Of a stretch of 60,079 nucleotides of DNA, positions 6,831-60,079 are shown one piece after another. Each line of letters begins with the position of its first letter. Positions within the stretch are counted from its first letter, which is position 1. The stretch comes from Candidatus Uhrbacteria bacterium (GTDB lineage: Bacteria; Patescibacteriota; Patescibacteriia; UBA9934; GWF2-40-263). Where the stretch lies: NCBI GenBank assembly GCA_016219925.1, contig JACRJU010000007.1, positions 1 to 60,079 of the forward strand. Direction: 5' to 3'. Under the pieces are notes generated by a model. The model saw nothing but the letters and a program-made list of their open reading frames with translations, searched no databases and had not been told where the DNA came from. The position numbers were made by a program, and so were the translations under genes.

Positions 6831-6865
6831 AACAGCTCATGAGCCCGTGAGGGCCCTGTGGGATT

Positions 6866-7019
6866 AAGTCTGTGAGATCTGTTCTCGATCGCCGCGTCGT
6901 CAGAGGAAATATAGAGTGAATATCATCTCGCGGCTTAGCCCTCGCCGCCCGAACCGTAGAAGTAAACAATCATTTAGACGAGGCGGTTGCGGATGTCATC
7001 GAACAGATCTCACAGACTT
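6866..7019. repeat. 154-bp element with perfect 19-bp inverted ends
   Basis: Arms at 6866-6884 and 7001-7019 are exact reverse complements (aagtctgtgagatctgttc), and complementarity continues imperfectly inward (tcgatcgccg against cggatgtcatcga). It fills almost the whole gap between two co-directional GT2 genes. No transposase is present; it could be a small non-autonomous palindromic element or a transcript-processing hairpin. Confidence 0.8.
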
Positions 7020-7034
7020 GATGTCCATTATCTC

Positions 7035-57756: not shown

Positions 57757-58824
57757 ATGTCTCTGCAAACAAAAATCGAATCGATCAAACAGCGCTATCA
57801 CGAACTCGAATCACAGCTCGCAGATCCGAGCTTGCTTTCTGATCCAAAAAAAATGCGCGCGGTGAACGAGGCCTTCGCAGGGACGAGTCTCATCATGGAG
57901 ATTATCAAAAGACATGAAAAGACCCAGTCAGATTTGCAAGGCGCAAAAGAGACGCTCGAACAGGCAGATGAGGAAGCTTTGAAAGAACTAGCTCAAGCTG
58001 AAATCGATCTGTCGGAAGCTCAGCTCCCTAACATTGAAAAAGAATTGATGTTGGCCCTGGTTCCACCGGATCCCATGGACAAAAAGAACATCATTGTTGA
58101 AATTCGCGCTGGAGCTGGCGGCGATGAATCCGCATTGTTTGCAACCGAACTATTGCGCGCTTACACGATGTACGGCGAACGGCGAGGCTGGAAAACCGAA
58201 CTGGTGAGCGCCAACCGAAACGATCTGGGTGGATTTAAGGAAGTCGTCTGCTCGATCAGTGGGCAAAACGTGTACAGCCGTCTGAAGTATGAAAGCGGAG
58301 TCCACCGTGTCCAGCGCGTGCCAGAAACAGAAAAACAAGGGCGTGTGCACACTTCAACGGTGACGGTGGCTATTCTTCCAGAAGCGGAAGAAGTTGATGT
58401 GCACATTGAACCGAAAGATCTGGTCATCGAAACAACGACTTCGCAGGGCGCCGGCGGCCAAAGTGTGAACACCACCTACTCGGCGGTTCGCATTACACAC
58501 ATCCCGACTGGAACAGTGGTTTATTGCCAAGAGGAACGGTCGCAAAAACAAAACAAGGAACGCGCCCTCTCGATTATCCGCGCACGTGTTTATGCCAAAG
58601 AACAAGAGCGCTTGCACAAAGAGCGCGAAGAAGCTCGACGTGGACAGATCGGAACAGGCGACCGCTCGGAAAAAATCCGAACATATAATTTCCCCCAAGA
58701 CCGCGTAACCGATCATCGCATCAAAGAGAGCTTCCACAACATCACGAGCCTCATGGACGGAAATCTCGATGAAATTATCGATACCCTCAAACAGGCGGAA
58801 GTCTCCGAAGAATTGGAGGCCTGA
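57757..58824 (+). CDS. prfA: Peptide chain release factor 1
   Basis: 355 residues. Helical N terminus, then EIRAGAGGDESALFATELLR, YESGVHRVQRVPETEKQGRV, and the catalytic loop TTSQGAGGQSVNTTYSAVRI with GGQ; DRVTDHRIKESFHNITSLMD closes the family. Anticodon-like PxT stands in the RF1 region (VQRVPETEKQGRVHTSTVTV). Reads UAA and UAG. No prmC follows. Confidence 0.97.
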   Translation: MSLQTKIESIKQRYHELESQLADPSLLSDPKKMRAVNEAFAGTSLIMEIIKRHEKTQSDLQGAKETLEQADEEALKELAQAEIDLSEAQLPNIEKELMLALVPPDPMDKKNIIVEIRAGAGGDESALFATELLRAYTMYGERRGWKTELVSANRNDLGGFKEVVCSISGQNVYSRLKYESGVHRVQRVPETEKQGRVHTSTVTVAILPEAEEVDVHIEPKDLVIETTTSQGAGGQSVNTTYSAVRITHIPTGTVVYCQEERSQKQNKERALSIIRARVYAKEQERLHKEREEARRGQIGTGDRSEKIRTYNFPQDRVTDHRIKESFHNITSLMDGNLDEIIDTLKQAEVSEELEA

Positions 58825-58826
58825 TC

Positions 58827-58851
58827 AAACCCCACATCCCGTGGGGTTTTT
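58827..58851 (+). terminator. Terminator after prfA
   Basis: ccccac-atccc-gtgggg preceded by three A and followed by five T. Confidence 0.85.
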
Positions 58852-58972
58852 GAATAGCGCTATACCAACCGAAGGATTCAGGGGATTCCTCCACAAACAC
58901 GCGGTCGGCCATCAATATTACTTCCCTACTCTTGCTTCCGGATTTATAAAAATGCATCAACCGAAGTCCTGC

Positions 58973-59140
58973 TGGAGTGCGAGAATTGTCTGTTCGCAGA
59001 CATCCGCAGCCGCATAGGACAACTGTCCAGTCATCTTCGTCGCCTCATGCGGCGAGGACTAAGGCGCCACTGAAGCCCCAACTTGATGGAAGAACTCCAC
59101 CCTACGGCGCCGGTCAAGAACAGACAATTCTCGCACTCCA
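58973..59140. repeat. 168-bp element with perfect 23-bp inverted ends
   Basis: 58973-58995 and 59118-59140 are exact reverse complements over 23 bases (tggagtgcgagaattgtctg...). The interior has its own hairpins (ggaca-act-gtcc, gcctcatgcggc). No gene inside. Longest perfect arms in the window. Confidence 0.88.
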
Positions 59141-59214
59141 ACAAAAAGAAAGTTTTTATCCACTAAACTGTGGATAACTACGCCTCATTTTTATAAATCC
59201 CCATATTACGCCTC

Positions 59215-59243
59215 TTGACAGACTTTTTTAGAGGTGTAAATTA
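59215..59243 (+). promoter_or_regulatory. Promoter of the terminal structured locus
   Basis: TTGACA (59215-59220), 17-bp spacer, AAATTA (59238-59243); TAAATT one base earlier is an alternative -10. No protein gene follows. Confidence 0.45.
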
Positions 59244-59249
59244 GACGTT

Positions 59250-60079
59250 ACGTTCAGCGAGGCAGAAACGATCCCCCCAAGGGGATACGCCTCCACGTTG
59301 CACCCACCGCAGAAGGCCATCTTGGTAAGAGCTGACCCGCAAGGGTCCTCACACTGACTGGGACCGGCCGGAAGCACCCACGACCTCAACGGGGTCGAAC
59401 TCGAGGCCGCAAGGCCTCGAGAAACGAGCTGGAAAGCTAACGAGGCTAGTCCTCGAAGCGAAACAGAGGCTCACATCGGAACCACATCAACGCGCAAGCT
59501 CGCGAGTACCTCGGACAGGCTGTCTACAGCCACAAAGCCCGCGGGTTCACTCGCGGAAACTGGTGGCCTACAACGGCAGGTTCGATCAAGGTAGGCATAG
59601 CGCAGATGCCGATGAAAGACCCTAAAAAGGTCCAGTCCGTGAGGGAACGATCCTGATCGGGCGACAGCAGACACAGGCCAAGGCCTCGGCTCTGGTCACA
59701 TGATGCTGAAAATCCAGTTGGTCCTCCAAGGCTTCGGCCAAGGATACCGCTGACATCGAACGCGCAACCTAATGGTCCAGACCAACTTCCAAGGCGGTTC
59801 GGATACGGTAGCGTTAGTAGATGTTTCCCGATGAGGACCAACTTCCAAGGCGGTCCTTCAGGGAAAAGAGGTCAAGCAGTTACCCACCACTGTAGATCTC
59901 AATAGTGGAAAAACCACTGGTACTGACTCGTGCGGTCTTCCGAGGCTTCGGCCAAGGATACCGCTGACATCGAACGCGCAACCTAATGGTCCAGACCAAC
60001 TTCCAAGGCGGTTCGGATACGGTAGCGTTAGTAGATGTTTCCCGATGAGGACCAACTTCCAAGGCGGTCCTTCAGGGAA
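59250..60079 (+). ncRNA. Candidate large structured RNA, runs off the window
   Basis: At least 830 bases without a believable reading frame and full of short, strong helices, several with GNRA-type loops: atcccc-ccaa-ggggat (59271-59286), gaccc-GCAA-gggtc (59334-59347), ctcgaggcc-GCAA-ggcctcgag (59400-59421), cgagg/cctcg (59441-59455) and ccgcg/cgcgg (59539-59556). The 3' half has four copies of accaacttccaaggcggt inside a duplicated block, and agttggtcc (59716-59724) can pair with ggaccaact of those copies. I compared it by eye with tmRNA, RNase P, SRP, 16S/23S and group I/II introns and found no match. Strand inferred from the promoter. Confidence 0.5.
59729..60079. repeat. Exact 137-bp direct duplication, period 214
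   Basis: 59729-59865 and 59943-60079 are identical. The 77-base spacer (59866-59942) contains ccact/agtgg pairing. The second copy ends on the last base of the window, so the array may continue beyond it or the contig may have been cut at this repeat. Confidence 0.92.

Follow-up and report, generated by a model that had tools for sequence, protein, structure and literature searches.

A probable large structured noncoding RNA gene, variable in sequence and preceded by DnaA boxes, at the prfA-prmC locus of Candidatus Uhrbacteria

The window analyzed here is a stretch of 60,079 nucleotides (nt) that makes up the whole of contig C3 in an 874-kb genome assembly (G000, 93% complete) of Candidatus Uhrbacteria, a lineage of ultra-small bacteria that we take to belong to class ABY1 of the Patescibacteria or candidate phyla radiation (CPR). 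Downstream of the peptide chain release factor gene prfA, the window ends in what is probably the 5' part of a gene for a large structured noncoding RNA: an inverted pair of DnaA boxes, a promoter, a short conserved box at the predicted transcript start and a long stretch rich in hairpins (Table 1). The contig stops at position 60079, within this gene, and the copy is truncated and lacks its 3' domain. Neither the position of the contig end inside the gene nor the two DnaA boxes upstream of its promoter had been recognized in the initial annotation, which had proposed a possible new large structured RNA here.

The TTGACA promoter-like site described in that annotation was borne out: with a 16-nt spacer and a TAAATT -10 hexamer, TTGACA-N16-TAAATT is the sole sigma70-like site within 58800-60079. 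A transcript initiated there would begin at about position 59247 and run off the contig end. The region was also said to hold more than 800 bases without a coding frame, and indeed no plus-strand open reading frame (ORF) of at least 40 amino acids starts within 59230-60079; frames exist on the minus strand, and the three that were tested gave no Pfam match. The fold of the whole region (850 nt) has a z-score of -6.6 for the plus strand, compared with -4.5 for the minus strand, and none of 20 shuffles was as good. The strong local helices that had been singled out, some of them capped by GCAA, are present, and the internal duplication is real (99% identity, 214-nt spacing), but it measures 146 nt and not the 137 bp first given. 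The end of its second copy coincides exactly with that of the contig, so the duplication is probably what broke the assembly. There are four accaacttccaaggcggt boxes, two in each repeat copy; the pairing proposed between such repeated boxes and the upstream agttggtcc (agttggtcc/ggaccaact) is possible, but the minimum-energy fold prefers local hairpins. The expected downstream neighbor, prmC, was not found in the window's assembly, as would be the case if the contig break fell inside the RNA gene, and the 3' half of the window RNA was thus not recovered.

Table 1. Features at the end of the window (positions in the window; copies and neighbors as described in the text).
Feature	Position	Strand	Remarks
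prfA (peptide chain release factor 1)	57757..58824	+	conserved upstream neighbor of the RNA gene
DnaA-box core TTATCCAC	59156..59163	+	first half of inverted pair
DnaA box TTATCCACA	59169..59177	-	second half of inverted pair
-35 hexamer TTGACA	59215..59220	+	kept in related loci
-10 hexamer TAAATT	59237..59242	+	identical hexamer in G001, G006, G024 and G032
Initially transcribed box GTTACGTTCAG	59247..59257	+	conserved; family form (A/G)TTACC(G/T)TC(G/A)G
5' part (at least 833 nt) of probable large structured noncoding RNA gene	59247..60079	+	fold z -6.6; synteny with 27 other loci; structure in genus sets; start inferred from promoter
Hairpin ATCCCC-CCAA-GGGGAT	59271..59286	+	
GCAA-capped hairpin GACCC-GCAA-GGGTC	59334..59347	+	same 14-mer in G001, colinear
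9-bp hairpin CTCGAGGCC-GCAA-GGCCTCGAG	59400..59421	+	
Repeat copy 1, 146 nt	59720..59865	+	
Repeat copy 2, 146 nt	59934..60079	+	99% identical to copy 1; ends exactly at contig end

By a prmC-based scan of named genomes, the relatives of the window's genome are Candidatus Uhrbacteria. Used as a DNA query against 96 relatives, the window RNA found matches in two genomes, and only to its promoter and 5' end. One of the two (G006) nevertheless has the same gene order and a 1.2-kb region free of ORFs. The comparison was therefore switched to synteny, and the interval downstream of prfA was taken from 40 other genomes of the family. An analogous RNA locus is present in 26 of these 40, which together with the window and a further species (L121) gives 28 loci in 14 of 19 genera; G040 also has the RNA (L179), and L126, whose 5' end is unchecked, is probably an RNA locus too. 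The loci consist of an ORF-poor interval, typically with an RNA of 0.55-1.2 kb, that opens with a TTGAC-type promoter and a 5' box near (A/G)TTACCGTC(G/A)G. Wherever the contig extends so far, an intrinsic terminator, identified by inspection, closes the RNA before prmC. The usual place is between prfA and prmC, and a nucleotidyltransferase gene often stands between prfA and the RNA. Within genus sets, sequence identity is 59-81%, and the window copy is tied to that of its congener G001 by the promoter, the DnaA box, the 5' box and three short colinear matches. The exact combination of promoter and TTACCGTC occurs in 6 of 22 family genomes and in 6 of 359 others; in the family genomes that have it, it is confined to the RNA locus downstream of prfA, and outside the family only the matches at L081 and at the contig edge L071 resemble RNA genes. 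A similar box-promoter region at a different locus in G013 (L172) is a candidate only. No consistent 3' partner was found for a fixed pairing with the 5' box, and the putative core motifs CCTGTGA, ACAACTC and GAGGCAGGCCTC were rejected, as none reaches beyond a few genera or a single family.

Conserved secondary structure with covariation, which defines a large structured noncoding RNA, is found at these loci. Compared with column-shuffled alignments, RNAalifold gave z-scores of -17.4 (genus set g6), -12.6 (g4), -8.4 (g5), -7.2 (g15) and -6.5 (g16), and the prmC coding controls gave -1.0, -0.7 and +0.2 in the same test. The reverse complements of the RNA alignments score about equally, so that the strand was assigned from other data. 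Single-sequence fold z-scores are lower (more negative) on the plus strand in all 12 RNAs computed; the density of stems capped by GNRA or UUCG tetraloops is 4.6 per kb for the plus strand, compared with 1.0 for the minus strand, and coding controls have 0.5-0.8; and both promoter and terminator agree with the plus strand.

A covariance model was built from three g5-type sequences for a domain of about 100 nt shortly 5' of the terminator. It recovers another genus (g12) at the same place (G040, E = 1e-5; G012, E = 1.6e-3; searched in 229 kb of mixed loci). Because the model, as is typical of a long hairpin, scores the opposite strand of its training sequences too (E 2e-5 to 0.02), E-values near 1e-3 rest on position plus score. 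In the resulting alignment of four sequences, which was fitted to the model and favors structure somewhat, 13 of 33 pairs are doubly changed and 93% of cells pair, a result that 0 of 500 shuffles reach; the covariation score of 0.545 falls to 0.05-0.13 when the structure is slid by 1-3 columns. With a second model, built from g6, the 3' domain of G001 is recovered (E = 2.7e-4). The initial annotation had named homologues that conserve a protein frame instead of base pairing as the outcome to look for against an RNA; what the related loci keep is the base pairing, and no protein frame. As far as the alignments reach, the sequence of the RNA turns over almost completely from genus to genus and its folded structure is maintained. 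We have very little doubt that this is a real, conserved structured RNA gene.

The second constant feature lies upstream. At 27 of the 28 loci, TTATCCAC or its complement is found within 150 nt upstream of the transcript start, compared with 4 of 1127 background windows of the same size, and the 28th locus carries TTATGCACA instead of the exact 8-mer core. DnaA acts as a transcription factor, for example in Bacillus subtilis (PMC4447404). As at DnaA-regulated promoters, the boxes of the Uhrbacteria RNA precede a sigma70-type promoter by no more than about 150 nt, and in the window the box TTATNCACA is close upstream (59156-59177). Elsewhere in Uhrbacteria, DnaA-box promoters also precede other genes, such as an rpsM-like operon (name from translation); the promoter of the RNA thus belongs to a probable set of DnaA-linked promoters. 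Across the class, 274 of 381 genomes have a TTGAC-N16-18-TANNNT promoter at a distance of 4-34 nt downstream of TTATCCAC, the reversed control being rare, and G365 and G379 hold dozens of such copies; DnaA may thus be a widespread transcription regulator in the class. On this arrangement of boxes and promoters, we lean toward placing the RNA gene under DnaA control.

Several observations weigh against one conserved, DnaA-linked RNA gene. Between most genera the RNAs cannot be aligned, and homology consists of place, promoter and 5' box. Even between the window and G001, the RNAs match in short colinear stretches only, and their whole-RNA alignment has a z-score of only -2.95 and no excess of compensatory changes. 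The whole-RNA alignment of G012 and G040 is not significant (z -0.9), and the 3' domain of g6 with G001, taken alone, covaries weakly (5 of 42 pairs; 51 of 500 shuffles). Promoters with a DnaA box beside them are found class-wide. Finally, the RNA is missing at the locus in ten genomes (G033, G026, G037, G042, G008, G014, G011, G028, G003 and G021), and it may therefore not be essential.

The other outcome that the initial annotation had named as refuting was a significant Rfam hit to a known family. No Rfam family reached its gathering score in the window, and nothing relevant appeared at E up to 10 within 58800-60079. In 20 related loci, Rfam returned only tRNAs and one unrelated group I intron, and the covariance models of GOLLD, ROOL and OLE matched neither the window nor these loci. 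The literature searches yielded no description of the Uhrbacteria RNA, nor, in what was searched, of a large structural RNA behind conserved DnaA boxes. The comparison with GOLLD, ROOL and OLE made at the outset is apt in kind, but the lack of an Rfam match, the locus, the hypervariability and the DnaA-box promoter set the Uhrbacteria RNA apart. OLE RNA is chromosomal, and the Uhrbacteria RNA is likewise large, structured and chromosomal; unlike OLE, it is sequence-variable, occurs in CPR bacteria and has no Rfam match. OLE itself is a large, structured and well-conserved class of about 600 nt, found mostly in Bacillota, whose function is open (PMC12054373). ROOL is a large ornate noncoding RNA of unknown function that often lies close to tRNA islands and that, in one Ligilactobacillus salivarius strain, equals 16S rRNA in abundance; OLE, ROOL and GOLLD form homo-oligomers, and their functions are open (PMC12286853). 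The Uhrbacteria RNA shares with ROOL its large, ornate form and some proximity to tRNAs, which lie beside RNA-like transcripts at three loci of another family and, among the Uhrbacteria loci scanned (L006, L055, L061), close to the RNA only in G007. ROOL is encoded by phages or prophages, whereas the Uhrbacteria RNA is a hypervariable one that lies between chromosomal housekeeping genes, with DnaA boxes at its promoter; a phage or prophage setting, which marks ROOL and GOLLD, was not found at the locus between prfA and prmC. As in GOLLD, it was the 3' domain that lent itself to modeling; unlike GOLLD, the RNA has no Rfam match, no phage context was seen and the promoter carries DnaA boxes.

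Four other explanations have to be weighed. The RNA could be a very long cis-regulatory leader of prmC that senses, for example, translation termination capacity, with the terminator attenuating prmC. Its usual position directly upstream of prmC, with some tens of bases between the intrinsic terminator and the start codon, fits this proposal. In G007, however, the RNA is parted from prmC by its own terminator and by an independently promoted tRNA-Arg unit, which makes a cis-leader unlikely, and RNA-like transcripts with the same kind of promoter stand beside other genes (tRNA-Asn; folD, glyA) in another family.

A poorer explanation, and a very unlikely one, is that the hairpins are by-products of an element that is mobile or in decay (an intron, a phage RNA gene or degenerate rRNA). 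Such an element would account for the hypervariability, the internal duplication, the absence from the locus in some genomes and the contig breaks in or near the RNA in several assemblies, but hardly for an RNA that is single-copy, keeps a constant position between housekeeping genes, has a conserved promoter and terminator and shows a covarying structure. Moreover, the window sequence occurs only once in its genome, and the RNA locus has no Rfam match to introns, rRNA, GOLLD or ROOL.

Conserved position, strong promoter and a size in the range of such RNAs could also point to one of the known housekeeping RNAs (RNase P RNA, tmRNA, 6S RNA or signal recognition particle (SRP) RNA) in a derived form whose sequence is no longer recognizable. 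RNase P RNA, however, is encoded elsewhere in 39 of 42 family genomes, the window's included (G000:C7:19562-20019), and was rejected as an identity; there is no weak Rfam match at E up to 10, tmRNA, 6S and SRP RNA having been searched in the region and not genome-wide. We consider this origin highly improbable. Least credible of all is an origin transcript (primer or open-complex helper) at a chromosome origin marked by the TTATCCACA sites: DnaA boxes do occur at nearly every RNA locus, but the G020 locus, at 409 kb, is far from the GC-skew switches (about 150-172 kb and 771-815 kb) and thus is not the origin, the skew does not switch in the window, and the same box-promoter arrangement is found at other genes, including the rpsM-like operon.

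The preferred reading, an independently transcribed RNA gene, may extend beyond Uhrbacteria. In other families of the class, long structured stretches that are poor in ORFs and have similar 5' boxes (GTTACCGTTCATTGA, GCACCTTGAGA) likewise begin at DnaA-box promoters. In family f25, the stretches with related 5' boxes are L141-L143, close to folD/glyA (genes named from their translations), and L152, L156 and L157, with L154 similar, which lie upstream of tRNA-Asn; L154 and L157, which are 85% identical, give an RNAalifold z of -6.5 and no excess of compensatory changes. In family f19, a similar region (L081) lies between pyrH-like and GAPDH-like genes. Only the promoter and the 5' box suggest homology of the f25 and f19 stretches to the Uhrbacteria RNA. 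A type of DnaA-controlled large RNA found throughout ABY1 or the wider CPR, its structure kept and its sequence not, is thus a speculative extension to which we give about one chance in three; if true, it would be a general CPR component, perhaps an RNA assembly linking replication state to growth or the translation machinery.

Comparable long, ORF-poor structured stretches behind similar promoters were also seen in other class families at L146 and L148. The 16S rRNA operon of L158 (family f25) has a DnaA-box promoter and a 5' start, GCACCTTCTTAAAG, like that family's RNA starts. An rRNA-type promoter was considered for the Uhrbacteria RNA and rejected: the Uhrbacteria 16S leaders start differently and have no exact DnaA box, and the resemblance to the f25 16S operon was dropped.

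Other structured elements were encountered along the way. A second, unrelated repeated element of about 170 nt lies in the window at 58970-59143 (+) and 6859-7026 (-). Its conserved loops read GTTCGC(A/C)GACATCCGCAG ... GAGGACTAAG ... GGTCAAGAAC, its closing stem of about 23 bp differs in sequence in each copy, and compensatory changes affect 25 of 49 pairs across 5 copies. A covariance model of this element gives 5 matches in the window's genome and more in G006, G024 and G032, and the remaining 92 genomes searched have none; no Rfam family matches the element, which resembles a ribozyme or a miniature inverted-repeat transposable element. A third repeated hairpin of about 75 nt, with a conserved core TGTCGnAGGGAACAGCGGCGAnnAGTCCGnTGGCCCGGAGACA and a variable closing stem (L075 1404, L104 2149), is sometimes nested in the 170-nt element (L018, L019, L027). 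In addition, the 16S rRNA gene of the window's genome is split between contigs at model position ~873 (G000:C4:41178-42037 and G000:C6:144840-145456), and those of G006 (C6, 1.77 kb) and G023 (C8, 1.90 kb) are unusually long, suggesting insertions or introns. Long RNase P RNA candidates (550-698 nt) below the Rfam cut-off, at G024:C25:17183-17880, G006:C3:44542-45127 and G025:C17:143-692, are candidates for strongly derived forms or forms with insertions.

Weighing all of this, we consider it likely that the window holds at its end the 5' part of a gene for a large structured noncoding RNA, that this gene is transcribed independently, and that it serves Uhrbacteria as a housekeeping element, probably linked to DnaA. 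Locus, promoter, DnaA boxes, terminator, strand and a structure conserved under fast sequence turnover can be read from the genomes compared, and from these we infer transcription, DnaA control, abundance and a scaffold role as follows. A strong sigma70-type promoter would launch the RNA at the conserved 5' box, and the intrinsic terminator would end the transcript. The RNA would fold into many GNRA- or UUCG-capped hairpins and a long 3' domain held by compensatory change. Through the one or two upstream boxes, DnaA would activate or repress the gene and so couple the amount of RNA to replication and growth. The product may be an abundant structural RNA, either the scaffold of a ribonucleoprotein or an RNA-only assembly, by analogy with OLE, ROOL and GOLLD. 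A structural role is the most likely one because structure, not sequence, is selected; the specific proposal of a scaffold or RNA assembly is offered tentatively.

Few large structured RNAs are known in bacteria, and their roles are open. The one proposed here would belong to a CPR lineage with reduced genomes, is apparently a housekeeping and not a phage-borne element, and appears to evolve so fast that sequence searches and Rfam miss it. Its near-invariant DnaA-box promoter offers a connection, open to direct test, between the replication initiator and a large RNA. The finding further suggests that other hypervariable RNAs may be hidden in ORF-poor gaps, to be revealed only by synteny and structure.
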